Shown: piece after piece, positions 8,064 to 53,126 of the stretch
How the letters are laid out: each line of letters begins with the position of its first letter
Numbering within the stretch: position 1 is the stretch's first letter
Source of the DNA: Synergistaceae bacterium
Lineage (GTDB): Bacteria; Synergistota; Synergistia; Synergistales; Synergistaceae
Reading direction: 5' to 3'
DNA: 64,000 nt
NCBI GenBank assembly: GCA_030523725.1
Contig: JAUNHV010000001.1
Span: 248,001 to 312,000 of the forward strand
Translations under genes and position numbers: made by a program
Notes under the pieces: model-generated
Databases searched by the model: none
What the model was told of the DNA's origin: nothing
The model's input: the letters and a program-made list of their open reading frames with translations, nothing else

Positions 8064-8077
8064 ATAATTTTCCTCCG

Positions 8078-9261: not shown

Positions 9262-9262
9262 A

Positions 9263-10549: not shown

Positions 10550-10552
10550 TAA

Positions 10553-13204: not shown

Positions 13205-13240
13205 TTTATATCCCCTCCCACAATTTGTCTAAAAACATTA

Positions 13241-16176: not shown

Positions 16177-16177
16177 A

Positions 16178-17488: not shown

Positions 17489-17495
17489 GAACTAT

Positions 17496-18083
17496 CTACC
17501 TTTTTGTGATAATTTCGTCAGCAATTCCATATTTAACCGCTTCTGTAGCAGTCATATAGAAATCACGTTCAGTATCATTCTGAATTTTTTCAAAAGTTTG
17601 TCCCGTATGAGAAGCTAATATTTCATTAAGTTTTTTTCTCGTTTTCTTTATTTCTTCTGCCTGAATAAGAATTTCAGTCTCCTGACCTTGAGCGCCTCCC
17701 ATCGGTTGATGTATCATTACCTTTGAATTTGGTAAGATAAAACGGGATCCTTTTTCTCCTGCAGCAAAAAGAACCGCAGCCATACTTGCAGCCATACCAA
17801 GACAAAGGGTTGAAACGCTCGGTTTTACAAACTGCATAGTGTCATATATTGCGAGCCCTGCAGAAACAGATCCACCAGGGCTATTTATGTAGAGTGAAAT
17901 TTGTTTGTCTGGATCCTCCAGTTCTAAAAAAAGTAACTGAGCAATTACAACATTTGCAACTATGTCATTTATTTCTGAACCTAAAAATATAATTCTATCC
18001 TTGAGCAAACGGCTGTATATATCGTAAGATCTCTCACCACCGTGCTCTGTTTGTTCAACTACAACTGGCACATAGTAAGACAT
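17496..18083 (-). CDS. clpP: ClpP protease subunit
   Basis: Serine peptidase forming the double heptameric ring. It is 195 residues with catalytic Ser in [16 protein letters not shown] (about 98), His in [12 protein letters not shown] (about 123) and Asp in the later NDTERDFYM region. [18 protein letters not shown] precedes the active site. It lies between tig and clpX with 5-7 bp gaps, the classic tig-clpP-clpX order. Confidence 0.97.
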
Positions 18084-18088
18084 TTGTT

Positions 18089-30211: not shown

Positions 30212-30881
30212 TACGTTTTAGCTCTTTTCTATATTCTTCTGCTTCAGGTATAAACTTTTTTACCAGTTGCCAAAATCTTGGCGAGTGATTCATCTCTTTT
30301 AAGTGGCATAGTTCGTGGACAATTACGTAATCAAAAAGATATTGTGGAAGAAGTGCCATTTTTACGTTAAAGGTAATATTTTTATTACTAGAGCAACTCC
30401 CCCACCTAGATTTTACATCTTTGATAGAAATTGCATTCGGCGAAAGATGTGTTTTTTTGCACCAATAGCTTAAGCGTTGTTGAAGCAATTCATACAGTAA
30501 GTGAGCATAAAAATTGTAAAAAAGTACATTTGCTTCTTCTCTACTACTAATTCTTGGAGATATCAGAAATTGACCGTCACGTTTAATTTCACGAGCAGAA
30601 TCTTCAATTTTTAATTTTACTTTTTCTCCACAACAGAAAAATTCGTCACCATCATTGTATGAATGTAATTTTGCTATTGTTTTTACTCTATCGTTCAACA
30701 AATTTTCAATAAAATCAGGAATAAATCTCTCAGCATTAATTTTGATTTCTTTATCAGACATATAGGCAGGCACATGCAAAAGAAATTCACCATCGTCACC
30801 AACTAGCACCGCACATCTTGTCCGTCTAGCCAATCTTTTAATATGGAAAATTTCATTACAAATCTTTATTTGTTCAATCAT
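30189..30881 (-). CDS. YgjP/WLM-type metallopeptidase-like protein
   Basis: About 230 residues of the YgjP (DUF45) family with the zinc motif VIVHELCHLKEMNHSPRFW (HExxH followed by a distal His) near the C-terminus and the preceding KSRWGSCSSNKNITFN block. I prefer the ATG at 30881 over a GTG six codons upstream. The predicted transcription start is at or just before this ATG, and the longer start would lie upstream of it. First gene of a three-gene operon with the MBL hydrolase and cysteine synthase. Confidence 0.8.
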   Translation of the reverse strand: MIEQIKICNEIFHIKRLARRTRCAVLVGDDGEFLLHVPAYMSDKEIKINAERFIPDFIENLLNDRVKTIAKLHSYNDGDEFFCCGEKVKLKIEDSAREIKRDGQFLISPRISSREEANVLFYNFYAHLLYELLQQRLSYWCKKTHLSPNAISIKDVKSRWGSCSSNKNITFNVKMALLPQYLFDYVIVHELCHLKEMNHSPRFWQLVKKFIPEAEEYRKELKRNEEKYTW

Positions 30882-30883
30882 AA

Positions 30884-30897
30884 TGGTATAATATACC
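30884..30897. promoter_or_regulatory. Overlapping divergent extended -10 elements in a palindrome
   Basis: The palindrome GGTATAATATACC (30885-30897) gives TGGTATAAT on the plus strand (30884-30892) for the ygiQ-like gene and TGGTATATT on the minus strand (98 down to 90) for the ygjP-like gene. Only one polymerase could occupy it at a time. Confidence 0.55.
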
Positions 30898-30926
30898 ACA
30901 ATTTTGAAAGAAAAGAACTAATATAC

Positions 30927-33597: not shown

Positions 33598-33674
<77 letters not shown>

Positions 33675-33689
33675 TATATATGAGAAGAT

Positions 33690-33766
33690 GGAGGATGTAG
33701 CTCAGTTGGCAGAGCCCCGGATTGTGGTTCCGGTTGTCGAGGGTTCAAATCCCTTCATCCTCCCCA
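33690..33766 (+). tRNA. tRNA-His (anticodon GUG)
   Basis: 77 nt including an encoded G at position -1 opposite discriminator C, the identity element of tRNA-His. Acceptor GAGGATG pairs with CATCCTC; anticodon loop TTGTGGT gives GTG; CCA is encoded. Confidence 0.97.
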
Positions 33767-33779
33767 TAAATTACTTTGT

Positions 33780-33855
33780 GGATCGTTAGCTCAATTGGCA
33801 GAGCATCTGACTCTTAATCAGGGGGTTACAGGTTCGATTCCTGTACGATCCACCA
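33780..33855 (+). tRNA. tRNA-Lys (anticodon CUU)
   Basis: 76 nt. Acceptor GGATCGT pairs with ACGATCC, discriminator A, encoded CCA; anticodon loop CTCTTAA gives CTT; T-loop GTTCGATTC. Confidence 0.97.
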
Positions 33856-33880
33856 TTTTTTTAGTATTTTAATTGGGCAT

Positions 33881-33955
33881 GGGCGGTTAACTCAGCGGTA
33901 GAGTGTCACCTTCACACGGTGGAAGTCGTTGGTTCAAACCCAATACCGCCCACCA
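33881..33955 (+). tRNA. tRNA-Val (anticodon CAC)
   Basis: 75 nt. Acceptor GGGCGGT pairs with ACCGCCC, discriminator A, encoded CCA; anticodon loop TTCACAC gives CAC. Last of the four clustered tRNAs. Confidence 0.95.
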
Positions 33956-34139: not shown

Positions 34140-34940
34140 TTATAGTGTAAAACGGAAACCTAAATTAAAATTAACTGAATTACTAATATCCTTGTAGTGC
34201 TTAACAAGTTCTGCATAGAAGTAGCTAGCTTTACCCATCTGCCAGCCACCACCGAGAGAAACTTCCCACCAATTGTGTGCACCATCCTGTTTGTATGATG
34301 CATCACCATATGTAACACTCGCTGAACCAGCAAAATCATGGTAGTAATTTACATTAAGATAATAGTTAATGTTACTAACTCGCTGTCCAAGGGCTATGCC
34401 CCATCTAGTAATGAAATGGTTTGTGCTATCTATGTCCGCCACATAAGCAGCGCTACTTGTCTTCTTTGCACCACTCAAATAACCATAGATAAGCTCAACT
34501 TGTGGCTCAAGGTAAAAACCATTTTTGCCCAAATTTGCTCTATATCCATATTCACCAGAGAGCGTTACACCATTCATAGCATAATCCAATTTTGTTACAA
34601 TCCCTGTATCATAGCTTGTTGTATCACTATCGTACTTTCCATAACGAAGGATGAAATCAAAATAGTGACCGGTGTTATAGATTTTTGTGTAATAAACACC
34701 TAGTGATGTTGATTCTAAATCGCCACCACCAATCTTAAATGACTGGTTTCCGTCCATGTGTTCAAAAGAAAGACCAAGGTAACCACGAGAAGTTGTATCA
34801 TTTTTCAAGGCAACGTCATATCCTATTTGGTAGAGATTGCCAGAGACATTGAGCTTTCTGCCCATATTGAGGTCATCCAAGCTTCTTTGGAAACGCATCC
34901 AACCAGTATTACTTTCTTCACCGCTACGAAGATCGCCAAG
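34140..34940 (-). other. Autotransporter beta-barrel domain region
   Basis: The C-terminal 265 or so residues contain alternating amphipathic strands typical of the outer-membrane translocator, for example GYLGLSFEHMDG, GHYFDFILRYGKYD, GVTLSGEYGYRANLG and GFYLEPQVELIYGYL, with an aromatic-rich end FNLGFRFTL. The preceding helix (NLAWLESVNNLQKRLGDLR) fits the pore-spanning linker. Confidence 0.9.
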
Positions 34941-37900
34941 GCGTTTTTGCAGGTTATTGACACTCTCCAACCAAGCGAGATTTATCGCATTTACTGTATC
35001 AGAAAGTGACATCGTAGTCTCGCTAGCTTCCGCTCCTTTAACCTTGGTAAACGTAAACTCGCCCTTTTCTTTGTCGTATCCAGCCATATAAGCTTGCGTA
35101 TGTGACGCAACATGCAAGTTCCTTGTATCACCATCGTAAGAAACAGCAGAGGCTAAAGCTTTGTTAGAAGTAAAGAGAACTTTCGTTACATCTCCGCTTG
35201 CTTCTGTTAAGAGTGTCAAGGCAGTGATGTGGAGTTTACCGTTATTACCTATGGTCACCGGAACAGAATCATCAAAGTTATCCATCTTTTTTGCTGCAAG
35301 GTCAACATCTAACTTCAAATATCCATCAGCTAATAGATTAATGTTTCTAACAACGTAACTTATTACCTTGTTGTCTTGGAAATCAAAACCACCACCATTA
35401 AATGTTAAATCATTATCTGCCATATAACTTTCTTGTGTAATCCTTGAATATCCTTGTGCTGCAATAATATTCTGATTAGAAAGCTGGGCATCCAAGGTCA
35501 CTCCATACATACTTTTTAGTTGAACATCACCATTCTCAGTTGGCATACTTGATTTAACGAGCTTAGTTAAGGTACCACCATTCAATGTTAACGTTCCATC
35601 GTTAGTTACGGTGTTATTAAGCTCGTTTGCCTCAATCGTAAGAGAACCAGTATTTAATATGCTACCATTACCGCTAACACCAAAACCAGATGCAAATGTT
35701 GTCGTCCCTGTAACGGTCATTATACCATCATTCACCACGGAATTTTGCATATTGATCGTATCAGCAAATTCAACTGCTCCAGCATTCATCACAGATGCCC
35801 CTTCAAATCCAGTTACGGTTAAGTTAGAAAGCCTCAGTGTATCCCCCTCATTTACCTTAACTCCACCGAAGGAAGCACCATTTAACGTATAACCTCCACC
35901 ATCAATCGTAAAGTCTCTTGCCTCTTGACCATTTCTGGTTAATGTGCCTAATGAGGTCGCACCTACAGGAAGAATTCCCTCAGTACTCTTTCCTAAAGTA
36001 ACATCCTTTAAGAAAACATATGTTAGTGGTGGATCATCTCGCATCCATGTATCTTTGGAAAGATTTATCGCACCATAAAGTGTACATCCTTCCAAGGCCT
36101 TTACGTGTAGTTTACCCTCATTGCCTTCGCCCTCTATTGCTGCAAATCTGTACGCTATATCTGTGCCATTTACCACTGTTCCACCAATCAATGTTAGGTT
36201 ACTAACATTACCAGTAAAGAGGTCTATATCTGCCTCATCATTTATTTTGAAAGTCCCATCGTTATAAATGCTGGACCTTAGGGATGCAAATTTCATTGTA
36301 CCCAACGCAGTACCTGTTATATCAATGCTATCATTAATTGCCGCTCCTTCATTACCATCTCTGTAGAGCTTTGTATTAAACATTATTTTGTTTGCTTCAT
36401 TTTTTTTGCTCGCCTCATTTATTTCGTCGGTTAGTGCTGTGAAATTTTTTACAGTTACAATATTTCCAGCCGTCCTAGCACTTCCTTCACTGATGTCTAT
36501 AGTCCCACCAATCAAAGTGACACTGTCTGTTTCATTCAGATGACCTTTACCTGTTCTCAATGTTCCCATTGTAACAATATCTTGGTCGCTTACTGTTACT
36601 CCGTATTTAAATGATTTTACACCAATTCCAAGATGGAGGTTTCCTCTCTTACCTATTGATGCAGATACATTTTGACCTATCTGTGTGCCAATAAGATCTA
36701 ATATTCCATCATTTGTTACTGCACTACCAAGATTTTTTGCTAAACTAACAAGAGATCCACTATCACTAATTGTTATTTTATTTGTAGCAATGTTTGCAGC
36801 CGATACCACAGCTTCGGTTATTAATGTTTCACCGCTTCCTGTTAGAGCATTTTTTAATGTGCCTTGAAATAATTTTAACGTTCCTTCATTCGTCACATCA
36901 CCACTAACATTGCTAGCAGATATTTCAAGAGACTTATTCGTCCTTATTCTTATTTGATTAGCTATGCTTGCATCGGATTTTACATCACCTACTATTTCAG
37001 TTACACCATTTCCCGTTACAGTATTTACCAATGTTCCGTCTGACAAGACTAATGCTCCATAGTTTGTCACATCACCATTCAAATTACCTGCTGAGATATC
37101 AAGCGATTTGTCTTCATTCACTGTTACGTCATTTGTTATCTTTGCAGTGGACACCACATTGCCATCTATTACTGTCAAGCCGCTACCATTTATTGTCTTT
37201 TCCAGCATACCTTTTGATAATGTTAAAGTCCCATCGTTTGTTACATCACCACCAACATTGTTTGCAGAAGTTGCAAGAGATTTAGCCGCGTTTATTGCTA
37301 TTGTATTTGCAATTTTTGCGCTAGACTCTACATCTCCATCTATCACAGTTTTGCCACTCCCAGTCACAGCATTTGTCAATGTTCCATCTGCAAGGGTTAA
37401 AGTTCCTTCGTTTGTTACAACTCCACCAACATTGCTTGCTGAGATTACAAGTGACCTTGTATTATTTATTGTTATTGTATTAGCAATGCTTGCGGTAAAT
37501 GTCACCGCTCCATCTATTATTGTTGAGCCATCACCATTTATTGCCTTTTCTAACGTTCCAGTTCCAAACAAGGTTAACGTTCCATTGTTAGTTACGGTGT
37601 TATTAAGCTCGTTTGCCTCAATCGTAAGAGAACCAGTATTTAATATGCTACCATTACCGCTAACACCAAAACCAGATGCAAATGTTGTCGTCCCTGTAAC
37701 GGTCATTATACCATCATTCACCACGGAATTTTGCATATTGATCGTATCAGCAAATTCAACTGCTCCAGCATTCATCACAGATGCCCCTTCAAATCCAGTT
37801 ACGGTTAAGTTAGAAAGCCTCAGTGTATCCCCCTCATTTACCTTAACTCCACCGAAGGAAGCACCATTTAACGTATAACCTCCACCATCAATCGTAAAGT

Positions 37901-40900
37901 CTCTTGCCTCTTGACCATTTCTGGTTAATGTGCCTAATGAGGTCGCACCTACAGGAAGAATTCCCTCAGTACTCTTTCCTAAAGTAACATCCTTTAAGAA
38001 AACATATGTTAGTGGTGGATCATCTCGCATCCATGTATCTTTGGAAAGATTTATCGCACCATAAAGTGTACATCCTTCCAAGGCCTTTACGTGTAGTTTA
38101 CCCTCATTGCCTTCGCCCTCTATTGCTGCAAATCTGTACGCTATATCTGTGCCATTTACCACTGTTCCACCAATCAATGTTAGGTTACTAACATTACCAG
38201 TAAAGAGGTCTATATCTGCCTCATCATTTATTTTGAAAGTCCCATCGTTATAAATGCTGGACCTTAGGGATGCAAATTTCATTGTACCCAACGCAGTACC
38301 TGTTATATCAATGCTATCATTAATTGCCGCTCCTTCATTACCATCTCTGTAGAGCTTTGTATTAAACATTATTTTGTTTGCTTCATTTTTTTTGCTCGCC
38401 TCATTTATTTCGTCGGTTAGTGCTGTGAAATTTTTTACAGTTACAATATTTCCAGCCGTCCTAGCACTTCCTTCACTGATGTCTATAGTCCCACCAATCA
38501 AAGTGACACTGTCTGTTTCATTCAGATGACCTTTACCTGTTCTCAATGTTCCCATTGTAACAATATCTTGGTCGCTTACTGTTACTCCGTATTTAAATGA
38601 TTTTACACCAATTCCAAGATGGAGGTTTCCTCTCTTACCTATTGATGCAGATACATTTTGACCTATCTGTGTGCCAATAAGATCTAATATTCCATCATTT
38701 GTTACTGCACTACCAAGATTTTTTGCTAAACTAACAAGAGATCCACTATCACTAATTGTTATTTTATTTGTAGCAATGTTTGCAGCCGATACCACAGCTT
38801 CGGTTATTAATGTTTCACCGCTTCCTGTTAGAGCATTTTTTAATGTGCCTTGAAATAATTTTAACGTTCCTTCATTCGTCACATCACCACTAACATTGCT
38901 AGCAGATATTTCAAGAGACTTATTCGTCCTTATTCTTATTTGATTAGCTATGCTTGCATCGGATTTTACATCACCTACTATTTCAGTTACACCATTTCCC
39001 GTTACAGTATTTACCAATGTTCCGTCTGACAAGACTAATGCTCCATAGTTTGTCACATCACCATTCAAATTACCTGCTGAGATATCAAGCGATTTGTCTT
39101 CATTCACTGTTACGTCATTTGTTATCTTTGCAGTGGACACCACATTGCCATCTATTACTGTCAAGCCGCTACCATTTATTGTCTTTTCCAGCATACCTTT
39201 TGATAATGTTAAAGTCCCATCGTTTGTTACATCACCACCAACATTGTTTGCAGAAGTTGCAAGAGATTTAGCCGCGTTTATTGCTATTGTATTTGCAATT
39301 TTTGCGCTAGACTCTACATCTCCATCTATCACAGTTTTGCCACTCCCAGTCACAGCATTTGTCAATGTTCCATCTGCAAGGGTTAAAGTTCCTTCGTTTG
39401 TTACAACTCCACCAACATTGCTTGCTGAGATTACAAGTGACCTTGTATTATTTATTGTTATTGTATTAGCAATGCTTACAGTGGAAGACACAGCACCATT
39501 TATTATGGTCGAGCCACCACCGTTTATTGCCTTGCCTAATGTGCCAGTCCCAAACAATGTCAAGATCCCATCGTTTGCTATAGTACCATAAACATTTCCT
39601 GCTGAGATAGTAAGCGATTTATTTGACAAAATTGCTATTTGGTTGGTTATAGCTCCGTTAGCTGCCACATCTCCTGTAATTATTATGTTACCAGCTCCAA
39701 TTATATTTTTTTCCAATGTTCCGTCTGATAATATTAGTTTACCAGCTTCATTTGTTACATCTCCGTCAACATTACTTGCTGAAATGGCAAGAGATTTATT
39801 GTTATTTATTGTTACAGCATTGGCAATTTTTGTACTGGATACCACAGTACCATCTATCTCTGTTGTACCGTTTCCATTTACTGCATTTTTCAATAAGCCT
39901 TTACCAAGAGTTAGTGTTCCATTGTTAGTGATTGCACCACCAACATTGCCTGCTGCAATAGCAAGAGAATTATTTTGTGTTATTTTTATGACATTAGCAA
40001 TGAGTGCGTCAGACGTAACACTTCCAGCAATCACTGTTTCACCGTAGCCACTTACTTCATGGTTCAATGTCTTGTTGTCCCCCGTAAGGATTAGAGTACC
40101 ATCGTTTATTACAACGTTACCTACATTAGTTGCAGAAATTGCGAGAGATTTTCCCTCTTTTATTGAAATCTCGTTATTTATTGCTTTACTAGCAGTGACA
40201 TTACCTGCTATTACAGTTAAACCATTACCATCTACTCCACTCATTAATGTTGCTGGGAGATCTGCTGACGTTCCACCTGTAATTGTAAGTGTGCCTTTAT
40301 TTGCAACAGCTTTGGTGGTCTGAATATTATCTGCTGCAGTTTCAAGTGAGCTATCACTATTTATAGCTAAGTTCTTTGTTGCTATGCTTGCAACTGAGGC
40401 TACACTTCCCGCAATAATCGTTGAACCGTTTCCGCTTATGTTCTTTATCAAGTTACCATTGCTAAGAGTGAGCCTGGCACCGTCTTCCACAGTTACCTCA
40501 CCACCAACCTTGCTCGCGGAAATTTCAAGAGACTTACTGTTTTGTATCCTTATTGCATTAGCTATGATTGCGTTTGACAGAACATCGCCAGCAATGACTG
40601 TATGACCAGTTCCAGTTTTTTGGGTCTGCATCACAGTATGGTTTAACGTTCCATCTGTAAGGATAAGTGTTCCTGCGTTGTTTACCACAGAACCGCAGAC
40701 ATTGCTTGCAGAAATCTTGAGAGACTTGGCATCATTTATTGTCATTGTGTTGGTTATGAGTACAGTGGACGTAATGTTACCGCTTATTACGGTTTTGCCC
40801 TCTCCATCCACCTCATGTGCCAATTTTTTGTTGTTTCCCGTGAGGATTAATATTCCATCGTTTATAACAGTGCCACCGATATTATCTGCTGCAATAGTGA

Positions 40901-43900
40901 GACTTCTATTGCTGTTTATCAATATAGAGTTGTTGATTGCAACGTTTGATGTAATGTCGCCACCTATAATTGTTTGACCGATTCCATTTATTTCCTTTGC
41001 CAAACTTCCCGTTCCATACAATACAAACTTAGCATCGTTGGTTATGTTGGCTATATCTGCACCAAGTCCGTTAGCTTCTATCGCCATCGAACCACTGTTT
41101 TCAATAGAGCCGATGCCGCTAATACCAAATCCCGAATTGAATACAACTGTCCCTGTAACGGTCATTTTGCCATTATTTTTAACAGAAGCAAACATATTGT
41201 TTGTGCCAGCAAATTCAACTGTTCCAGCATTCGTTACAAAGTCACCGTTGAATCCTGTTACGGTTAAATTAGAAAGAGTCAAGGTGTCTCCATTGTTTAC
41301 TTCAACACCACCATAACCTGCACCATTCAACGTGTGGCCATTGCCATTGATTGTAAATGTGTCTCTTGTCGTTGTCACAGCAGGATCTCCATTTAACGTA
41401 CCTAATGAGGTTTCATTAGATGGAATATACCCAACAGCATCAACTCCAAGTATTACATCATCTGTAAAGGAATATACCGTTGGTGGATTCGCTTTCAATG
41501 GTTCTAGTGTTAGGTTTATTGCACCATAAAGTGTGCAACCTTCAGTTGCTTGTATGTGTAATTGTCCTGCGGTATCTGTAGTAGTAAAATTGTAGGCAAT
41601 ATCCGGACTTTCTACTACCAAGCCACCAACTAATGTGAGACCGGTTACATTACCAGTAAACAAAGAAATATCTGCCCCGCTACCCATAGTAAATGAACCA
41701 TCGTTATAGATATTCGCACTAGTAATATCTATTTTTACATTGCTAGGGATTGTCACATTTCCAGCAACATTTATGCTATCGCTTTTGACCTTTGTAGCAT
41801 CAGTTGAAAGTATTGTGTTAAATACTATCTTGTTTATGCCTTTATCTGCAGTAAAACTATTTATTTTTACAACGTTACCTGCTTCCTCGGCACTTCCATT
41901 TGTTATGTTGATTGTACCATTCTTTAACGTAACATTGTCCGTTGCATTTAAGTGCCATTGTCCTGTTCCGTCATCGCCAGCACCGGTATTGAGTTTTCCT
42001 CTTGCAGAAACTTCAATATCCTGATTGGTCACCTTTACTCCTTTATCAAAGGATTTTTCGCCACCAACAAATTTCAATGTGCCTCTCTTATTTTCTGACG
42101 CAAATACATCGTAACTTAACATCTTTCCAGTAAGATTCAGTGTTCCATCATTGGTTACATCTCCACCAACATTTTCTGCGGAAATTGTGAGAGAATTGTC
42201 ACTGCTTACTGTTATTGCATTCTCTATGCTTTTTCTGGCTACTATGGTTCCATCAATTACTGTTGCACCGTTTCCAGTCACAGTATTGTTTAATATTTCA
42301 GCATCTGCTCCAGACAATCTAAGTGTTCCATTATTTGTAACGTCTCCTCCTATATCATTTGCAGAAATATAAAGAGTTTTGCCACTATTTATTGTTATTT
42401 CGTTGGCTATTTTCGCAGCAGTAGATACAACATTTACACCATCTATTACGGTTGTTCCGTTCCCCTCTATTTTTTGTGTTAATATTCCATCTAACAACGT
42501 TAACGTGCCATTATTCACTACGTCACCATCAACATTATCAGCTAAAATTTCAAGAGAGCCTCTGTCGTATATTTTTATTGCATTCGCGATACTTGCAGTT
42601 GACCTCACAGTTCCAACAACCACAGTAGAACCGCCTCCATTTATCACCTTGTTTAATGTGCCAGTCTTGAGAGTTAGTGTTGCATTGTTTGTTACGTCAC
42701 CAGCAACATCACTTGCGGAAATAGTTAAAGCTCCTGCTGGTGTCCCGGCAGTTGCGTCTTCAGCTAATATAGTTATTGCGTTGGCTATGCTTTTTGTGGA
42801 TATCACGTCTCCGTTTATTACTGTTCGACCAGTTCCAGTTACTGCATTGCGTAATTTGCCGTCTGATAATGTTAGCGTTCCTGCAGTATTTGTTACTATC
42901 CCACCAATATTATTTGCAGAAATTTTAAGAGAATTACTGCCTTTTATTTCTATCGCATTGGCTATGTTTTCATCAGATGTTACAACTCCGTTTATTACAG
43001 TTTCACCGTTTCCACTTATTTCATTTGCTAAAGTGCCTCCTAAAAGGGTTAGCATTCCATCGTTTGTTACAACACCACCAACATTATTTGCAGAAATTTT
43101 AAGAGATTTTTCACTATTTATCGTTATTTTATTAGCAATGTTTTTGTCGGATGTTACAGCTCCATCAATAATTGTTACACCACTTCCGCTTACTGTTTTT
43201 GCCAAGGAACCACCTGAAAGGATTAGCGTTCCGTCGTTTGTTACAGCACCATCAACGTTACCTGCAGAAATTGCAAGGCTTTTTGTAGCATTTATTGTTA
43301 TTTTATTAGCAATGTTTTTATCAGATGTTACAGTTCCATCAATAATTGTTGAACCGTTTCCGCTCACTGCTTTCGCTAATGTCCCATCTGTAAGGGTTAG
43401 TGTTCCCGCTTCATTTGTTACGGTATTACCAACATAATTAGCGGAAATTGTAAGAGATTTGCCATTATTTATTGTTATGGTGTTTCCTATAATCGCACTA
43501 GATATTATATCTCCATCAATTTTTGTTGAACCGTTTCCTTTTACCGCATAGGCTAATTCACCATTAGACAATGTTAGTGTTCCAGCATCATTTGTTACAA
43601 CTCCCCCAATACTGCTAGCAGAAATTGTGAGAGAATTACTACCAGCTATTGTTATGGTGTTTCCTATGCTTGCATCAGACATTACAGCTCCAGCAATCAC
43701 AGTTGAACCGTTCCCACTTACATTACGGCTCAATGTGTCACCTTCAAGAGTTAGCGTGCCTTTGTTTGTCACGTCACCGCCAATATTATCTGCAGAAATA
43801 TTAAGAGATTTTCCGCTATTTATTGTTATTTCATTTTCTATGATTTCATTAGATATAACATCTCCGGCTATTATCGTTTCACCGCTTCCCTCAACTGCAT

Positions 43901-46900
43901 TGCCCAATGTGCCATCCAAAAGACTTAGTTTTCCATTGTTAGTAACAGTAAAATCGCCACCAACTTTATCTGCGGAAATTACAAGTCTCTTGTCAGTATT
44001 TATTGTTATTTTGTCATCAATGTTTGCCGTGGAAATTACGATTCCATCAATTACCGTTGAGCTATTCGTATTGTTTCCTGTTACAGTGTGCTTCAAAATT
44101 CCACCAGATAGTGTTAGAGTTCCACTGTTTGTCACGTCACCTGCAACATGACCGGCAGAAATTTTAAGGGACTTTCCTTCATTTACTGTTATTGCGTTAG
44201 CAATTCGTGTATTAGCAATCACATATCCGTCAACGACGGTGCTACCCGCTCCGCTTACGGCATAGTTTAATGTGCCATCGGACAGGGTTAGCGTTCCTGC
44301 TTCGTTTGTTACCCTCCCACCAATGTTATTTGCAGAAATTCCAAGAGAGTTTGAACTACTTATAGTTATTGCATTTGCTATAAGCTTGTTGGACGTAACT
44401 GCTCCGTCTATTATCGTCTGCCCATCTCCGCTTACAGCACTCTCCAACGTGCCATCTTTAAGAGTTAGCGTTCCGTTGTTTGTTGTTTCGTTGCCAAGAT
44501 TGCTAGCCCCTATCGTAAGGGAGCTTGTGTTTGTTATGACACCATCACCACTAACGCCAAAACCTGAGGCAAATGTTGTTGCCCCAGTTACATTCATTGC
44601 TCCGTTATTTATTACAGAGCTTTCCATTGTGTTTGTGTCATTAAACTCAAGTGTTCCTGCGTTTGTTAGAAACACATTGTCCTTAAATTCCTTTACGGTT
44701 AAGTCGGAAAGAATTAAAGTGTCACCTTCATTCACAGTAATTCCACCATATTGCTTAGCATTACCACTTAATACTTTTCCATTTCCAAGAATTGTAAAGG
44801 TTTCTCTCGTCTTTTCGTCTGGCAATCCATCGTTTAATGTGCCTAATGAGGTAGCACCTTCCGGCAGAACTCCTGCACCATCAGTTCCCAATGTTGTGTC
44901 TGCTGTAAGACTGTAGGTAGTTGGTAAATTATATTCTGTTCGTGGTGTATTTAAATTTATAGCCTCGTAAAGAGTGCAGCCTTCTTCTGCGTTTATTTTT
45001 ACCTTGCCTTCATTGCCTGCTCCTTCTACTGCAGAGAAAACATAGGACAAATCCGCACTTGCTGTTACACTCTTACCAACAATCTTTAGATTACTTATGT
45101 TACCTGTTTCGGCTGGCACAAATAAATCTATGATTGCCTCATCTCCTACGCCAAACGTGCCTGCGTTAGCAATGTTTGCTCTTGTGGCAGCGATATTCAG
45201 AGTGCTACCTGCCGTTACTGTTCCAGCAACCTTTATGCTATCGCTAATTGCTTTTGCAGTTCCAAGCGTTTTTGACACCTTTGTGTTGAACACAATTCTA
45301 TTTGTCCCATCTTTGGCAGAAAAATCATTTATTTCAACAACATTTGCATTGTGCTCTGTCAAGGCTATGGCACTTCCATTTGTAATATCTATTGTGCCAT
45401 TCTTCAAGGTAACATTATCGGTTGTGTTTATATGGTCTTTGCCAGCCTTTAGTATTCCAAGCGATGTAACACAAATATCCTGATTTGTTAAAGTTATGCC
45501 ATCAGCAAATGTCTTTTCACCAAGCGTAAGGTTTAATGTGCCCCTGTTTGTGGCAGTTACATTTTTGCTCAGTTGTTCGCCAAAGAGTGTGAGTGTTCCA
45601 TCATTAGTTACATTCGCGCCGACATTTTCCGCAGAAATAGTAAGGGTTTTGTCACTATTTATCGTTATTGCGTTGGATATGCTCGCAGTGGATGTCACAT
45701 CTCCGTCAATTACAGTTTCACCACTTCCATTAACTGCATTTTTCAATGTGCCATCTCCGAGAGTCAAGTTTCCACTGTTTGAAACGGTTCTACCAATATA
45801 ATTTGCCGATGAAGTAAGAGATTTTCCACCGTTTATCGTTATTGCGTTAGCCACATTGGCATCGAATGTTACTGTTCCATCAATTACAGTTTCACCGCTG
45901 CCACTTACTGCATTATTCAATGTGTCACCGGTAAGGGTTAGTGTTCCACTGTTTGAAACCGTCACGCCAAGATAATTTGCTGAAGAAGTAAGAGATTTTC
46001 CATCGTTTACCGTTATTGCATTTGCCACATTGGCATTAAAGGTCACAGCTCCGTCAATTTCCGTCGTGCCACTGCCATTTACAGCTTTTGCCAATGTTCC
46101 ACCTGTAAGATTCAGTGTTCCATTGTTTGTTACGAGAGAATCACTAATACAAATGTTTTCCGCAGATATCGCAAGAAGAGCGCTGGGGCTATCTGAAATG
46201 CTTAATGATTGGCCATAAATTTTTTCATTGGATACCACGTTTCCTGTAATATGTGTCTTTACGTTTTCACCAGTTGCTTGTGTCCCTATGCCCTGTGTTG
46301 TTAATGTTCCACCTGTGAGGTATAGGTTGCCAACGCCAGTTACGGCTTTACCGGCACCAATATTATCTGCTGAAATTTCAAGGCTGCTTTGTGCAACACT
46401 AAGATTTATTGAATTATTTATGAGAGCATTAGACAAAACATAACCATTACCTATTACAGTTGAGCCACTTCCAGCTACTGCATTATTCAGTGTGCCACCA
46501 GTGAGTGTCAATTTTTCATTGTTTGCGACAATTCCGCCAATATAATTTGCCGACGAAGTAAGAGATTTTCCGCTGTTTATCGTTATTGCGTTCGCCACAT
46601 TAGCATTAAACGTCACGGTTCCGTCAATTACAGTTTTACCGCTTCCACTTACTGCATTATTCAATGTGTCACCAGTAAGGGTTAGAGTTCCATTGTTAGA
46701 AACTGTTCCACCAATGTAATTTGCCAAGGACGAAAGAGATTTTCCAGAATTGATTGATATTTTAGTCTTTATCGACGCATTGCTTATTACACTTCCATCA
46801 ATTTCTGTTGTGCCATCACCACTTACTTCATGGCTTAATGTGTCACCAGTAAGGGTTAGAGTTCCACTGTTAGAAACTGTTCCACCAATGTAATTTGCCA

Positions 46901-49900
46901 AGGACGAAAGAGATTTTCCAGAATTGATTGATATTTTAGTCTTTATCGACGCATTGCTTATTACACTTCCATCAATTTCTGTTGTGCCACTTCCACTTAC
47001 TTCTTTTCGTAGAATTCCTCCTGTAAGGACTAGCTTTTTGTTTTTACTTATTGCTACAACACCGCCAACATTGCCTGCTGAAATTTTGAGTTCTCCGTCT
47101 TCAATGTTGATCTTGGGAGTGCTTATTTCTTTCTTTGCTGTTAACTTAGCCTTTATTGATGTTGTTCCACTTCCGGTAATTGCATTATTTATGCTATCGT
47201 TAGTCAACAATGTTGTATATGCGTATATTTCCAGTTTGCCATTATTCTCTATGTCACCATCAATATTAGATGCAATTATTTGAAGAGATTTGCCACCATT
47301 TATTATCATTTCACTACTTATTTTGCCAATGGCTGGCGCTATTGATGATATATTACCTGCTATTATTGTTTTACCACTACCCTTTATTCTATGAGCCAAT
47401 GGTTCACCAATACCTAATTTTGATTTGCCTGTCAAGGTCAGAGTTCCATTGTTCGTAACATCCGAAGTAACACCACCAATATTGCCAACAGAAATCTTAA
47501 GCGATTTACCATCATTAATCGTTATGTTGTTGGTAATCGCCTTATCTGATATTACATCACCATCTATCACTAAAGAGCCAAAATCTAATATTTCCTTGTT
47601 TAGCGTTCCATCAGAAAGAATTACCGTTCCTTCTCTATTATGGATAGTATTACCAACGTTATCAGCAGAAATTTCAAACTTTCTGCCAGGCTCAATGTAA
47701 ATCTCTGTATTTATTTTTGCTTCGGATTTAACATCGCCACGAGATATTGCTGTAACACCATTTCCCGATATTTCGTGTGTTAATGTTCCCTGTATCAGGT
47801 CTAGTTGCGCATATTTATTTACAAGGACATCGTGGGTGATGCTATCTGCTAAGATTGCAAGAGCTGTTTTTGCAGAGCCGTTTCCTACCGTTATTTTGTT
47901 TTGTATTTTCTTTCTTGTTTTTACAAATCCACTATCTATTATTGTGTTTCCTTCTCCCATTATGATGTTGTTCAACATCATTTCGTTATCCGCGTCAGAA
48001 CCGCCTGTCAGTTTTAACGTTCCTGCTTCGTTCGTTACGATACCACCCACATTCTCTGCAGAAACCTTAAGAGACTTTCCCTCATTGATTGTTATTTTAT
48101 TTTCTATTTTTGCATTGGATACAATATCTCCGTCAATTACCGTGGAGCCTATTCCGCTAACAGCATTTTCTAATTTGTTTCCTTCTGTTCCTGTCAAGGT
48201 AAGTTTACCATCGTTTGTAACAGCACCGCCAACATTACTAGCAGAAATTTGAAGCGACTTTAGTTTATTTATCATTATTGTGTTAGCTATGCTTTCACTA
48301 GATGTAACAGCACCGTTTATTACTGTTGTTCCACTACCACTTACCTTTTTGCTCAAGGCACCGGCTCCAAGGTTTAACGTTCCGTCATTTGTTATTGTGT
48401 TGCCAAGATTGCTAGCACCTATCGTAAGCGAACCAGTGTTTGTTATATTTCCTGTGCCGGTAACGCCAAAACCTGAGGCAAATGTTGTCGCCCCAGTTAC
48501 ATTCATTGTCCCGTTATTTTCCACCGAGTTATACATATTGTTTGTTCCAGCAAACTCAAGTGTTCCACTACCTTTTTCATCAGAATTTACAGTTACAAAT
48601 GCTCCGTCAAATCCTTTCACTGTCAAATTAGAAAGTGTCAAGGTGTCACCACTATTCACGACAACGCCACCGAATTTTGTTGAGCCATCTGTGCCATTCA
48701 AGGTGTGACCATCACCCTCAATTGTTAAGGAGTGTCTTGTGCCGCCCTCTGGCAACCCTGCATTTAATATTCCTAATGATGTCACATCATCTGGAACAAT
48801 ACCAGCACTTGTATCACTTTCCACAGTCTTATGATGCAATTTTATATCTTCTGTAAGAGTATATGTATCTGGTGGAAGCGCTTTTGCTTCGTCTGTATTT
48901 AGGTTTATTGCTTCATAAAGGGTGTAACCATCCATGGCTTCTATCTTCAATCTACCCTTTTGAGACTTATCTGCCGTAAATAGGTAAGCAAGCTCTGAGC
49001 TTGCTGTTACCTTCTCGCCAACCAAGGTTAAACCGTTCAAATTTTCGCCAGTAAACAACTGCAAATAGGCAAAATTTTGCTTAGCAAACAGATTATTACT
49101 GATATTTAATTTTGTGTCAGCAACATTCACTCTGCCACTTGCAGTCCCCGTTACTGTTATGCTATCACCAATTGCCTTTCCTTCTTTCTCCTCTTGGACA
49201 CCAGTTCCGGTAAGTTTTACGTTAAATACAATTTTATTTGTTCCTTGGGATGCATTGAAATTTTTAACCTTAACAACGTTGGCGTTAGCTTCCGTTAAGT
49301 CATCAGCACTTACGTTTGTAATGTCTATTGTTCCACCATTCAGCGTAATATCATCAGTTTCGTCTATATGTCCTGCACCTGTTCTCAAAATTCCGCTTGT
49401 GGTGACATTTTGATTTTTTATCTCTACACCTGTTCCAAATGATTTCTCACCTATTCCAAGATTTAATGTGCCAGTTTTGTCAGAGGAGGCAGACACATTT
49501 TGCCCCACCAATCTACCTAGAATGGTGAGTGTTCCGTCATTTGTTACTGCCTTGGCAAGATTATTTGACAAAGCAATGAGCGAAGCATTTTCGTTTATCT
49601 TTAGAGCATTATCTATTCTTGCTGTGGAAATTACGACACCACTATTTATTACTGTTGAGCCATCTCCTGTTACTTCTCGTGCCAATGTTACCTTGTCTTG
49701 AGCACTTCCACCACCAAGAAGAGATAATGTCCCGGCGTTCGTTACAGCTCCGCCAACATTGCTTGCGGAAATTTCAAGAGACTTTTCATTATTTATTGTT
49801 ATTTCATTAGCAATGCCAAAATTGGATTTTACTGTTCCGTCTATTTCTGTAAATCCAGCTCCATTTACAGCCTTTTTTAATTCCCCATCTTTTAGAATTA

Positions 49901-52900
49901 GTTTTCCATAGTTTGATACACCATCTGCAACATTGATATCACTAGCTGAAAGGTTAAGGGTGCTGCCATTATTTATAGCCAAGGTTTTACTAGCTATGCT
50001 CTCATTAGATGTTACATTTCCGGAAATGGTCGTAACTCCGGTTCCGCCTATTGCACGCCCCAAGGTGCCGTCTGTAAGGACAAGTGCGCCATTGTTAGTT
50101 ACAATACCTGCGACATTGCCTGCAGAAATCGTGAGAGACTTTTCCGCATTGATTGTTATCGCATTAGCTATACTTACATTAGACGTAACAACTCCGTCTA
50201 TTACAGTTGTGCCGACAGTCATGCCATCTCCCGTTACTGCCTTTGCCAAGGTGCCATCCAAAAGTGTCAGAGTTCCAAGATTTGTTGTGTTACCACCAAT
50301 ATTACTTGCAGAAATTGTGAGAGACTTAAGGCTTTGGATTTCTATTTCATTTCCTATGCTTGCATCAGATGTGACAGCTCCTGTTATTATCGTTTTACCA
50401 CTTCCACTTATTGCATTTGCCAAGGTATTACCCGTAAGATACAGCTGCCCATTGTTCGCCACCGTCACATCACCACCAAGGAAGTTTGCCAAGGTGGTAA
50501 GGGATTTTCCGCTATTTATTGTTATTTCATTGGCTATGTTTGCATTGGCTACAACAGCTCCGTTTATCACAGTTGTGCCAGAGCCTGTTATATCTTTTGC
50601 TAATGTGCCACCATTACCAGTTAGGGTTAGTGTTTTGTTGTTCTCAATGGTGTTACCAAGTTGACCTACGTTTATGGTAAACAGACCTGTATTTGTTATG
50701 GAGCCACTGCCGCTGACTCCGTAGTCGGAATTAAAGGTCGTTTCCCCTGTGACGTTCATTACTCCGTTGTTTTCCACAGAATTATTCATGGTATTCGTGC
50801 CTGTAAACTCAAGTGTCCCAGCGTTTGTAACAAATGACCCATTAAATTCTTTTACGGTAAGGTCTGAAATAATGAGTGTGTCATCACTATTAACGATAAT
50901 TCCACCATTACCGGCGCCATCCAAGGTGTGATTATTACCATTTATTGCAAAACTTCTTGGCTCTGTATCCTTCTCCGTCAAGGTGCCTAATGAAGTCACT
51001 CCTTCTGGAAGATTTCCTGCTTCACTGCCATCACCTAACGCAACATCAGTTTCTAAATCATAATCGCTTGGCGTTCTTGTTACAGCTCCTCCCTTGAGGT
51101 TAATAGCTTCATAAAGGGAATAACCAACCATTTTCTCTGCACTTAAGGATATGATTTGCCAAGTGTTACCATTTTGAGCAATTGTAGGAGTATAACGATA
51201 TATTTTATTGCCAAAGATATAATCAGTCGGCTTTCCAACAAGGGAAATTGTGTCTCCTCCGGTTGTGGCAGTAAACACATCAACCGTGCCAGACCAAATA
51301 TTTTCACCAGTTGCTAATGTTGCAAAGATTGGGTCATAGGCAATTTGGATGTTCAAAGTGTTGTTACCAGCTGCAACACTTGTTACTGTGATAGTATCAG
51401 AAATGCCGGCATCTAAATATGTTCCAACCTTTATTGTTCCGCCACTGTTATTTGCAATGAGATTTGTAAAATTAAGTTCCCTTTTTGTAGTTGCGGTTAC
51501 TTCACGTCCATAACTTTCCTTGCCATCTGTAATAGAATCATAGCCAACATCTATAACACCATCCTTGTCTAACGTGACATTGACACTATCTGTTGATTTG
51601 TGGGAAGTGCTATCAAAAACTGGGAGCCATCGCCCACCGTCAGACAGATATAATTTATTAACACCATTGCCTTCAGTAACAAAGTTTCCATGCACATAAG
51701 AATTATTGTTTGCAAGAGCGATGTTGTTTTCTGCCGAGTTGTATGTACTGTATGCCGTAACATTTCCCTCAAGTTGAATTTCCAAATTAGTTTTATTTAT
51801 TGCTGCTTGTTCTAAATAGCCAAGTGTAATTTTTCCAGAATCTGAGAAAAGTGAGTAATTATCTTGTTTGTTAGGATCCATTTTTACATAGACATTACCA
51901 ATAACGAGGAAATCACCGGAAGAATAAATACCATGGGCAGTATCTGCATTGATATTGCTAATTTTTAACGCACCTGCTTCCTTTGAAATGGCATTCATTA
52001 GCGATAGCTTAGCGGATTCTGTCTTTAAACCGCGGGCGGAAGTGCCATAGGTCTTTATTTGCATCCCATTAACACCATCTATTATGATATCACCACCACC
52101 TGTTTCTATGACGTAAGAAGGAGTAGTAGTATATTTTATCTCCATACCTACGTTGTTTACATCTTTGATAACGATATCTCCGCCCCTTTCGCTTTGCTTG
52201 CTGCTATCCAACTTGACCGTGAAAATTTTTCCATGGAGATAAAGACCTGTCCCCGGACCATCCTTCGGATTAGGATTAATAGAGCTAATGTTAATGTTGC
52301 TCCCATTTGTGCATACCTCCATACCACTCATATACATTCCATAAGCCTCATTCGTGCCACCAGCTTTTACCCCATTTATATTAATATCGCTAGCGGTGCG
52401 TAAGGATGACACATTTCCTACGGTGTAGATACCATAGGCTTTAGCCCACAAATCTTTACTGCTCGCCTCTATATTCGATACGTTGATACCGCCACCACCA
52501 AGAGTATGCCATTTTGTATCAACTTCAGTTGAAAGGGTAGCACCATTTAAATACACTCCACATACAGAAATACCATCATTTAAGTTAGAAGCGGGAAGGC
52601 TTGACTTTACATTACTTATATTCACGGTTGCACCTAACGTATATACAGTTGTCGAAGAACCAACCGCCGCTAGCCCATAGGCTTCTGTTCCTTCAGGTTT
52701 ACTAAGAGAGGGATCTTTTTCGATAGTTGTTACCTTGTCTATATTTATTGCAGCAAGATTATGGTCTTTATTTGTAAGTAAAACATCCAAAACATCCATA
52801 TAATTGTTAGAATAAAAATACATTCCGTATGCGCCATGGCTTTGTAAAAGGTATTTTGTGGAAACTGCACTTATGGTAGGATTGTCAGCAAACCATAGTT

Positions 52901-53126
52901 GACCCGATCCGGCATTAGACAAATGTATTCCATATGCGCCATCCTTATCGGGAGTGGTGACGGCAATGCTTTCGTAAGGGTCATTTGTTCCCTCGTTAAA
53001 CTCTGTCACTGTGGAATTTGTAATCATTGCATAGGCTGGCACACTCAAAATGCTTTGCCCAAAAATAGATAGCACAAGAATCCACACGGAAGCCTTTATA
53101 AATAGTTTATAATATTCTTCTTTCAT
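34140..53126 (-). CDS. Giant modular autotransporter (type V secretion) of 6328 residues
   Basis: An uninterrupted frame of 18,987 bp. The signal peptide spans residues 1-33, with likely cleavage after AYA. Residues about 34-660 form a distinct N-terminal region with repeated short Gly/Ile/Asn motifs (AYGIHL, AYGMYF, AYGMYM). From about 670 the passenger has six modules whose LY(E/G)AINL motifs fall near residues 669, 1402, 2718, 3865, 5020 and 5682. Each then has a GxTLNG / GDTLxLSNLTV block, an FASGFGVSG-type block and, except in the last, a run of about 58-residue repeats (about 6, 15, 13, 13 and 5 by my count) of the form TVIDGxVxSxxxIANxITIN, then KSLxISAxNVGGxVTNxGTL. This is a parallel beta-helix-like pattern. 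The last 260-270 residues are the beta-barrel translocator, ending in GFRFTL. Mass is on the order of 640 kDa. Probable surface adhesin; the ligand is unknown. It has its own promoter and terminator. Confidence 0.95.
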   Translation of the reverse strand: MKEEYYKLFIKASVWILVLSIFGQSILSVPAYAMITNSTVTEFNEGTNDPYESIAVTTPDKDGAYGIHLSNAGSGQLWFADNPTISAVSTKYLLQSHGAYGMYFYSNNYMDVLDVLLTNKDHNLAAINIDKVTTIEKDPSLSKPEGTEAYGLAAVGSSTTVYTLGATVNISNVKSSLPASNLNDGISVCGVYLNGATLSTEVDTKWHTLGGGGINVSNIEASSKDLWAKAYGIYTVGNVSSLRTASDININGVKAGGTNEAYGMYMSGMEVCTNGSNINISSINPNPKDGPGTGLYLHGKIFTVKLDSSKQSERGGDIVIKDVNNVGMEIKYTTTPSYVIETGGGDIIIDGVNGMQIKTYGTSARGLKTESAKLSLMNAISKEAGALKISNINADTAHGIYSSGDFLVIGNVYVKMDPNKQDNYSLFSDSGKITLGYLEQAAINKTNLEIQLEGNVTAYSTYNSAENNIALANNNSYVHGNFVTEGNGVNKLYLSDGGRWLPVFDSTSHKSTDSVNVTLDKDGVIDVGYDSITDGKESYGREVTATTKRELNFTNLIANNSGGTIKVGTYLDAGISDTITVTSVAAGNNTLNIQIAYDPIFATLATGENIWSGTVDVFTATTGGDTISLVGKPTDYIFGNKIYRYTPTIAQNGNTWQIISLSAEKMVGYSLYEAINLKGGAVTRTPSDYDLETDVALGDGSEAGNLPEGVTSLGTLTEKDTEPRSFAINGNNHTLDGAGNGGIIVNSDDTLIISDLTVKEFNGSFVTNAGTLEFTGTNTMNNSVENNGVMNVTGETTFNSDYGVSGSGSITNTGLFTINVGQLGNTIENNKTLTLTGNGGTLAKDITGSGTTVINGAVVANANIANEITINSGKSLTTLANFLGGDVTVANNGQLYLTGNTLANAISGSGKTIITGAVTSDASIGNEIEIQSLKSLTISASNIGGNTTNLGTLTLLDGTLAKAVTGDGMTVGTTVIDGVVTSNVSIANAITINAEKSLTISAGNVAGIVTNNGALVLTDGTLGRAIGGTGVTTISGNVTSNESIASKTLAINNGSTLNLSASDINVADGVSNYGKLILKDGELKKAVNGAGFTEIDGTVKSNFGIANEITINNEKSLEISASNVGGAVTNAGTLSLLGGGSAQDKVTLAREVTGDGSTVINSGVVISTARIDNALKINENASLIALSNNLAKAVTNDGTLTILGRLVGQNVSASSDKTGTLNLGIGEKSFGTGVEIKNQNVTTSGILRTGAGHIDETDDITLNGGTIDITNVSADDLTEANANVVKVKNFNASQGTNKIVFNVKLTGTGVQEEKEGKAIGDSITVTGTASGRVNVADTKLNISNNLFAKQNFAYLQLFTGENLNGLTLVGEKVTASSELAYLFTADKSQKGRLKIEAMDGYTLYEAINLNTDEAKALPPDTYTLTEDIKLHHKTVESDTSAGIVPDDVTSLGILNAGLPEGGTRHSLTIEGDGHTLNGTDGSTKFGGVVVNSGDTLTLSNLTVKGFDGAFVTVNSDEKGSGTLEFAGTNNMYNSVENNGTMNVTGATTFASGFGVTGTGNITNTGSLTIGASNLGNTITNDGTLNLGAGALSKKVSGSGTTVINGAVTSSESIANTIMINKLKSLQISASNVGGAVTNDGKLTLTGTEGNKLENAVSGIGSTVIDGDIVSNAKIENKITINEGKSLKVSAENVGGIVTNEAGTLKLTGGSDADNEMMLNNIIMGEGNTIIDSGFVKTRKKIQNKITVGNGSAKTALAILADSITHDVLVNKYAQLDLIQGTLTHEISGNGVTAISRGDVKSEAKINTEIYIEPGRKFEISADNVGNTIHNREGTVILSDGTLNKEILDFGSLVIDGDVISDKAITNNITINDGKSLKISVGNIGGVTSDVTNNGTLTLTGKSKLGIGEPLAHRIKGSGKTIIAGNISSIAPAIGKISSEMIINGGKSLQIIASNIDGDIENNGKLEIYAYTTLLTNDSINNAITGSGTTSIKAKLTAKKEISTPKINIEDGELKISAGNVGGVVAISKNKKLVLTGGILRKEVSGSGTTEIDGSVISNASIKTKISINSGKSLSSLANYIGGTVSNSGTLTLTGDTLSHEVSGDGTTEIDGSVISNASIKTKISINSGKSLSSLANYIGGTVSNNGTLTLTGDTLNNAVSGSGKTVIDGTVTFNANVANAITINSGKSLTSSANYIGGIVANNEKLTLTGGTLNNAVAGSGSTVIGNGYVLSNALINNSINLSVAQSSLEISADNIGAGKAVTGVGNLYLTGGTLTTQGIGTQATGENVKTHITGNVVSNEKIYGQSLSISDSPSALLAISAENICISDSLVTNNGTLNLTGGTLAKAVNGSGTTEIDGAVTFNANVANAITVNDGKSLTSSANYLGVTVSNSGTLTLTGDTLNNAVSGSGETVIDGTVTFDANVANAITINGGKSLTSSANYIGRTVSNSGNLTLGDGTLKNAVNGSGETVIDGDVTSTASISNAITINSDKTLTISAENVGANVTNDGTLTLFGEQLSKNVTATNRGTLNLTLGEKTFADGITLTNQDICVTSLGILKAGKDHINTTDNVTLKNGTIDITNGSAIALTEHNANVVEINDFSAKDGTNRIVFNTKVSKTLGTAKAISDSIKVAGTVTAGSTLNIAATRANIANAGTFGVGDEAIIDLFVPAETGNISNLKIVGKSVTASADLSYVFSAVEGAGNEGKVKINAEEGCTLYEAINLNTPRTEYNLPTTYSLTADTTLGTDGAGVLPEGATSLGTLNDGLPDEKTRETFTILGNGKVLSGNAKQYGGITVNEGDTLILSDLTVKEFKDNVFLTNAGTLEFNDTNTMESSVINNGAMNVTGATTFASGFGVSGDGVITNTSSLTIGASNLGNETTNNGTLTLKDGTLESAVSGDGQTIIDGAVTSNKLIANAITISSSNSLGISANNIGGRVTNEAGTLTLSDGTLNYAVSGAGSTVVDGYVIANTRIANAITVNEGKSLKISAGHVAGDVTNSGTLTLSGGILKHTVTGNNTNSSTVIDGIVISTANIDDKITINTDKRLVISADKVGGDFTVTNNGKLSLLDGTLGNAVEGSGETIIAGDVISNEIIENEITINSGKSLNISADNIGGDVTNKGTLTLEGDTLSRNVSGNGSTVIAGAVMSDASIGNTITIAGSNSLTISASSIGGVVTNDAGTLTLSNGELAYAVKGNGSTKIDGDIISSAIIGNTITINNGKSLTISANYVGNTVTNEAGTLTLTDGTLAKAVSGNGSTIIDGTVTSDKNIANKITINATKSLAISAGNVDGAVTNDGTLILSGGSLAKTVSGSGVTIIDGAVTSDKNIANKITINSEKSLKISANNVGGVVTNDGMLTLLGGTLANEISGNGETVINGVVTSDENIANAIEIKGSNSLKISANNIGGIVTNTAGTLTLSDGKLRNAVTGTGRTVINGDVISTKSIANAITILAEDATAGTPAGALTISASDVAGDVTNNATLTLKTGTLNKVINGGGSTVVVGTVRSTASIANAIKIYDRGSLEILADNVDGDVVNNGTLTLLDGILTQKIEGNGTTVIDGVNVVSTAAKIANEITINSGKTLYISANDIGGDVTNNGTLRLSGADAEILNNTVTGNGATVIDGTIVARKSIENAITVSSDNSLTISAENVGGDVTNDGTLNLTGKMLSYDVFASENKRGTLKFVGGEKSFDKGVKVTNQDIEVSARGKLNTGAGDDGTGQWHLNATDNVTLKNGTINITNGSAEEAGNVVKINSFTADKGINKIVFNTILSTDATKVKSDSINVAGNVTIPSNVKIDITSANIYNDGSFTMGSGADISLFTGNVTGLTLVGGLVVESPDIAYNFTTTDTAGQLHIQATEGCTLYGAINLTLEPLKANPPTVYSFTDDVILGVDAVGYIPSNETSLGTLNGDPAVTTTRDTFTINGNGHTLNGAGYGGVEVNNGDTLTLSNLTVTGFNGDFVTNAGTVEFAGTNNMFASVKNNGKMTVTGTVVFNSGFGISGIGSIENSGSMAIEANGLGADIANITNDAKFVLYGTGSLAKEINGIGQTIIGGDITSNVAINNSILINSNRSLTIAADNIGGTVINDGILILTGNNKKLAHEVDGEGKTVISGNITSTVLITNTMTINDAKSLKISASNVCGSVVNNAGTLILTDGTLNHTVMQTQKTGTGHTVIAGDVLSNAIIANAIRIQNSKSLEISASKVGGEVTVEDGARLTLSNGNLIKNISGNGSTIIAGSVASVASIATKNLAINSDSSLETAADNIQTTKAVANKGTLTITGGTSADLPATLMSGVDGNGLTVIAGNVTASKAINNEISIKEGKSLAISATNVGNVVINDGTLILTGDNKTLNHEVSGYGETVIAGSVTSDALIANVIKITQNNSLAIAAGNVGGAITNNGTLTLGKGLLKNAVNGNGTTEIDGTVVSSTKIANAVTINNNKSLAISASNVDGDVTNEAGKLILSDGTLEKNIIGAGNIIITGDVAANGAITNQIAILSNKSLTISAGNVYGTIANDGILTLFGTGTLGKAINGGGSTIINGAVSSTVSIANTITINNTRSLVISASNVGGVVTNEGTLTLADGTLTNAVTGSGKTVIDGDVESSAKIANTIAINAAKSLATSANNVGGDVTNDGTLTLSKGMLEKTINGSGLTVIDGNVVSTAKITNDVTVNEDKSLDISAGNLNGDVTNYGALVLSDGTLVNTVTGNGVTEIVGDVKSDASIANQIRIRTNKSLEISASNVSGDVTNEGTLKLFQGTLKNALTGSGETLITEAVVSAANIATNKITISDSGSLVSLAKNLGSAVTNDGILDLIGTQIGQNVSASIGKRGNLHLGIGVKSFKYGVTVSDQDIVTMGTLRTGKGHLNETDSVTLIGGTIDISEGSARTAGNIVTVKNFTALTDEINEASKKNEANKIMFNTKLYRDGNEGAAINDSIDITGTALGTMKFASLRSSIYNDGTFKINDEADIDLFTGNVSNLTLIGGTVVNGTDIAYRFAAIEGEGNEGKLHVKALEGCTLYGAINLSKDTWMRDDPPLTYVFLKDVTLGKSTEGILPVGATSLGTLTRNGQEARDFTIDGGGYTLNGASFGGVKVNEGDTLRLSNLTVTGFEGASVMNAGAVEFADTINMQNSVVNDGIMTVTGTTTFASGFGVSGNGSILNTGSLTIEANELNNTVTNNGTLTLFGTGTLEKAINGDGSTIIDGAVTFTASIANTITINNTRSLVISASNVGGVVTNEGTLTLADGTLTNAVTGSGKTVIDGDVESSAKIANTIAINAAKSLATSANNVGGDVTNDGTLTLSKGMLEKTINGSGLTVIDGNVVSTAKITNDVTVNEDKSLDISAGNLNGDVTNYGALVLSDGTLVNTVTGNGVTEIVGDVKSDASIANQIRIRTNKSLEISASNVSGDVTNEGTLKLFQGTLKNALTGSGETLITEAVVSAANIATNKITISDSGSLVSLAKNLGSAVTNDGILDLIGTQIGQNVSASIGKRGNLHLGIGVKSFKYGVTVSDQDIVTMGTLRTGKGHLNETDSVTLIGGTIDISEGSARTAGNIVTVKNFTALTDEINEASKKNEANKIMFNTKLYRDGNEGAAINDSIDITGTALGTMKFASLRSSIYNDGTFKINDEADIDLFTGNVSNLTLIGGTVVNGTDIAYRFAAIEGEGNEGKLHVKALEGCTLYGAINLSKDTWMRDDPPLTYVFLKDVTLGKSTEGILPVGATSLGTLTRNGQEARDFTIDGGGYTLNGASFGGVKVNEGDTLRLSNLTVTGFEGASVMNAGAVEFADTINMQNSVVNDGIMTVTGTTTFASGFGVSGNGSILNTGSLTIEANELNNTVTNDGTLTLNGGTLTKLVKSSMPTENGDVQLKSMYGVTLDAQLSNQNIIAAQGYSRITQESYMADNDLTFNGGGFDFQDNKVISYVVRNINLLADGYLKLDVDLAAKKMDNFDDSVPVTIGNNGKLHITALTLLTEASGDVTKVLFTSNKALASAVSYDGDTRNLHVASHTQAYMAGYDKEKGEFTFTKVKGAEASETTMSLSDTVNAINLAWLESVNNLQKRLGDLRSGEESNTGWMRFQRSLDDLNMGRKLNVSGNLYQIGYDVALKNDTTSRGYLGLSFEHMDGNQSFKIGGGDLESTSLGVYYTKIYNTGHYFDFILRYGKYDSDTTSYDTGIVTKLDYAMNGVTLSGEYGYRANLGKNGFYLEPQVELIYGYLSGAKKTSSAAYVADIDSTNHFITRWGIALGQRVSNINYYLNVNYYHDFAGSASVTYGDASYKQDGAHNWWEVSLGGGWQMGKASYFYAELVKHYKDISNSVNFNLGFRFTL
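35601..37491. repeat. Tandem module copy A, identical to 37587-39477
   Basis: A 1891-bp block inside the autotransporter gene that reappears exactly 1986 bp further on (662 codons). I found no difference on reading through both copies. The first mismatches are at 35600/37586 on one side and 37492/39478 on the other. It covers the sixth module's LYGAINL block and the preceding five 58-residue repeats with their spacer. Confidence 0.92.
37587..39477. repeat. Tandem module copy B, identical to 35601-37491
   Basis: Second copy of the 1891-bp block, containing the fifth module. About 95 bp of diverged sequence (37492-37586) separates the copies and completes the 1986-bp period. In-frame duplication keeps the gene open. 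Confidence 0.92.
46667..47014. repeat. Two tandem 174-bp units (58 residues each)
   Basis: 46667-46840 and 46841-47014 are almost identical, with only a few differences (for example ATTG/ACTG near 46694/46868 and a diverged last 25 bases). They give two consecutive copies of a unit containing EIDGSVISNASIKTKISIN and SLSSLANYIGGTVSN, and define the 58-residue period of the passenger. Confidence 0.88.

Follow-up and report, generated by a model that had tools for sequence, protein, structure and literature searches.

One stretch of a giant autotransporter gene in a Synergistaceae bacterium has, on well-supported sequence grounds, apparently been copied recently over another stretch of the same gene. 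The gene lies in the window, by which we mean the whole 64,000-nucleotide stretch of DNA that was analyzed. The reading we favor, with a probability of roughly 60%, is that an old duplication was followed by recent gene conversion, or by an equivalent unequal exchange, over 1.9 kb.

The gene (34140..53126, minus strand) encodes 6328 aa, laid out as an N-terminal region, five complete modules, a sixth header, a linker, and a C-terminal barrel. The barrel matches the autotransporter β-barrel PF03797 (34209..34850, minus strand; E 1.6e-25; 90.7 bits versus a cutoff of 26), and the N-terminus, MKEEYYKLFIKASVWILVLSIFGQSILSVPAYA, looks by eye like a Sec signal peptide. A complete module consists of a header, 58-aa β-helix units, and a footer; a profile of the repeat finds ∼52 full units in the protein. 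Because the headers start with LYxAINL at residues 671, 1403, 2719, 3866, 5021, and 5683, modules 1 to 5 are 732, 1316, 1147, 1155, and 662 aa long. Module 4 (38067..41531, minus strand) holds 13 full units and module 5 (36081..38066, minus strand) holds 5. Module 5 is predicted to fold as a parallel β-helix: the protein model is of good confidence (pLDDT 86.6), and its structural neighbors are pertactin, Ag43, Hap, and UpaB, all of them autotransporter passengers (Z 13–17), with weak Foldseek scores and a large rmsd in the longest alignments. The passenger as a whole would then be a long parallel β-helix of a type Va-like monomeric autotransporter, an assignment that our estimate of roughly 60% includes jointly with the conversion history. 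A surface fiber, adhesive or shielding, would be the natural reading for a giant β-helical autotransporter by analogy. A cluster of four tRNA genes lies just past the 3′ end of the gene (33598-33952), and the window also holds a YgiQ-like radical SAM gene (30843-32729) whose top matches among named genomes come almost entirely from Clostridia (53–58%), from which it was possibly acquired. Within the giant gene, the opposite strand also carries long open frames (42379-43437, 37108-37878, and others), probably a byproduct of repeat composition.

Positions 35601-37491 and 37587-39477 match at 1891 of 1891 bases, third codon positions included, as the initial annotation had claimed, at an offset of 1986 bp, or 662 codons. 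This is the sole run of at least 40 bp at that offset and the longest exact repeat of the window; across the whole genome, the block is present at two sites only. In gene order, the first copy (37587..39477, minus strand) takes in the last part of one 58-aa unit, then four more units, the module-4 footer, and the module-5 header; the second (35601..37491, minus strand) takes in the corresponding elements where module 5 ends, together with the sixth header. Neither block is in phase with the module boundaries, and identity is lost abruptly at either side. The earlier description of two adjacent, identical 662-residue modules was right about the 662-codon period but not about whole modules: each block spans a module tail and footer plus the next header, modules 4 and 5 differ in length (1155 and 662 aa), and the identical run covers 1891 of the 1986 bp. 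Within the block there are 0 differences over ∼452 synonymous sites (dS < ∼0.007 by the rule of three). The other modules are strongly diverged, as had also been noted, with headers 60–67% and footers 59–63% identical in nucleotide sequence and a synonymous divergence (pS) of 0.49–0.70; the remaining module pairs are all near silent-site saturation.

Between the two copies lies a 95-bp spacer, X′ (37492..37586, minus strand), whose homologue X (39478..39572, minus strand) adjoins the first copy on its 5′ side in the gene sense. Aligned in register, X and X′ are identical at 71/95 positions and differ at the other 24 (25%), with 12 synonymous and 7 nonsynonymous codons and a pS of 0.61; the spacer looks like a relic of older divergence. 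In a comparison covering the giant gene and the paralogue loci that we fetched, X and X′ are reciprocal best matches, at 75%. The chance of all 24 differences falling within 95 of 1986 bp is ∼1e-33, and mutation alone cannot yield 0/1891 beside 24/95. At the 3′ edge, the in-register homology itself ends ∼27 bp beyond the identical tract. An invariant block bounded by a diverged homologous flank is the pattern of a conversion tract, and the juxtaposition argues for an old duplication with recent overwriting confined to the neighboring 1.9 kb.

Under this history, modules 4 and 5 would stem from an old in-register duplication, and homologous recombination, either as gene conversion or as unequal exchange between sister copies, would much later have overwritten 1.9 kb of one copy; we infer both the mechanism and its direction. 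The 95 bp of X/X′ would have stayed unconverted at one edge, and the tract would have halted at the other where homology runs out. With a period that keeps both the reading frame and the phase of the β-helix units, such an exchange would preserve a foldable protein, and the homogenized repeats would now lend themselves well to the gain or loss of more 662-aa segments. The genome carries a full-length recA. It also carries mutS, which counts against conversion, as MutS normally disfavors recombination between strongly diverged partners. Inspection of the block edges turned up nothing pointing to a mobile element.

The identity had first been put down to very recent duplication or ongoing gene conversion. 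Recent copying is borne out, but a simple tandem duplication is disfavored because it should leave an identical run of at least 1986 bp, 95 bp longer than the one observed, and because the silent sites of X and X′ are near saturation. The initial annotation also expected module copy number to vary between strains, which would be a prediction from the single genome available for the genus. A modified version, in which unequal crossing-over recently duplicated one 1986-bp unit and X or X′ was then replaced via another 58-aa unit, would yield the order seen, X-block-X′-block-Y, and the last header shares, at its end, a short stretch with the start of X that could have seeded the crossover. However, this version requires two events, must accommodate the near-saturated silent sites, and lacks a source for the replacement, as neither the giant gene nor the fetched paralogue loci hold a better donor for X or X′ than their mutual 75% match. 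We consider it unlikely.

The copying that we favor for modules 4 and 5 would fit a wider pattern in the genome (1.55 Mb in 15 contigs, rated 100% complete), where ∼12 loci carry this barrel, eleven of them close. Paralogues have exact blocks of 2450, 1214, 1154, 815, and 742 bp in common, all with abrupt edges; the 2450- and 1214-bp blocks are shared by the genes on contigs C11 and C14, and the 1154-bp block is shared by C1 and C2. Eight genes have identical barrel segments of ∼550 bp, and a segment of 617 bp occurs at four places, whereas the barrel of the giant gene is only ∼65–74% identical to the other paralogue barrels. The C11 and C14 genes differ in length in frame, by ∼1080 bp (a multiple of three) and by ∼2223 bp. 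At the starts of these two contigs, the paralogues that share the exact 2450-bp block open with the same 55 bp. Contig C2 (40000-59999) bears two autotransporter genes head to tail, at segment positions 2346-9269 and 9464-19042, with 3.2 kb shared at 89% identity and an exact 723-bp block. Because the paralogues show exact blocks with abrupt edges, concerted evolution is a trait of the autotransporter family and not of one pair. Much more tentatively, and with more doubt than confidence, the dozen genes might constitute a single recombining pool, with barrels, headers, and β-helix units continually copied within and between genes, varying passenger length and surface sequence.

The exactness of these repeats has to be weighed against the quality of the assembly. 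Six pairs of contig ends have exactly 55 bp in common, a pattern characteristic of short-read assembly on a de Bruijn graph with k = 55; several contigs start or stop in autotransporter genes or rRNA-like sequence, and the assembly holds no 16S gene. Assemblers of the SPAdes type merge small bulges. The single SNPs retained in the long exact paralogue blocks all lie close to a block end, none farther in than ∼130 bp; SNPs in the interior may therefore have been collapsed, and the blocks may in truth be less than 100% identical. Because the assembly is of this type, the figures of 100.0% identity and exactly two copies are provisional; placement of exact 2-kb repeats may have drawn on longer-range links. 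It is conceivable, on this basis, that copies only ∼97–99% alike were merged and that two passes through the loop differ from the true number. The 55-bp contig-end overlaps, the missing 16S gene, and the long exact paralogue blocks free of interior SNPs are all compatible with such merging, and errors of this sort in tandem-repeat genes are the subject of PMC6868369. Yet the diverged X′ is joined to the block on both sides, which calls for at least two block starts and at least two block ends. Moreover, 25 short paralogue differences, nine of them single SNPs, were retained between exact runs of at least 55 bp, and exact repeats elsewhere, as long as 2450 bp, are set in unique contexts. We regard an assembly effect of this kind as quite improbable. 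The concern over an artifact raised by the initial annotation is thus justified by the k = 55 signs but does not extend to an erroneous doubling of one copy, from which a diverged X′ cannot arise; that the copies are very similar and number at least two is strongly argued. Identity kept by purifying selection or codon constraint alone has a negligible probability and was rejected, given 0 differences over ∼452 synonymous sites against a pS of 0.5–0.7 in homologous modules.

Beyond this genome, barrel relatives in other members of the Synergistaceae are only ∼25–34% identical, and the genomes of a related genus (g6) hold distant module relatives at ∼31–40% identity. Long module-like proteins (31–40%), including a 3410-aa frame, are found on four contigs of one related-genus genome (G014; C99, C11, C97, and C72); the contigs fetched from that genus, these four among them, contain no long exact repeats. 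Neither the named public genomes nor the viral contigs searched yielded relatives of barrel and modules, and a distant DNA search of a phage collection gave no match. Within the analysis, placement in the Synergistaceae was judged from a Synergist-CTERM signal, which is above the cutoff in 6 of the 8 other genomes of the family that were tested and in 0 of 14 controls; the genome with the giant gene itself lacks the signal.

The comparison suggests one old repeat recently copied over its neighbor; the process itself is ordinary. The case is a clean natural example of age and local homogeneity coexisting in giant repeat adhesins, with the unconverted 95-bp spacer serving as a built-in internal clock. 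It also brings into view a large, little-studied family of Synergistaceae autotransporters, and it shows that perfect repeat identity in short-read assemblies should be read with care. If the recombining pool were real, passengers would differ across a population of cells in length and in surface sequence, changing by large in-frame steps. Our literature searches found nothing specific on concerted evolution of autotransporters or on autotransporters of Synergistetes.

Among known systems, the giant protein resembles the type Va autotransporters (antigen 43, pertactin, Hap, and UpaB) in its C-terminal PF03797 barrel and its predicted parallel β-helix passenger. It differs from them in its length of ∼6.3 thousand residues and in its 58-aa units grouped into modules of 662–1316 aa, and no protease or catalytic domain was identified in a scan that took in the smaller part of the passenger. 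Autotransporters reportedly act as surface adhesins in Veillonella, a diderm outside the Proteobacteria (PMC7549365); the giant protein likewise comes from such a diderm, in this case from the Synergistaceae. The Periscope Proteins contain highly identical tandem repeats whose number is expected to change protein length by homologous recombination (PMC8201768, PMC9704523). Like them, the giant protein is predicted to be a monomeric surface protein, and its one identical repeat pair may be a partial parallel; on the analogy, length change in 662-aa steps by recombination would be a reasonable prediction from the one genome of this genus. Unlike in the Periscope Proteins, only one repeat pair is identical (100% over 1891 bp), whereas all other modules are strongly diverged at 59–67% nucleotide identity, and where Periscope Proteins are built from separately folding domains, the giant protein is built from continuous β-helix units.
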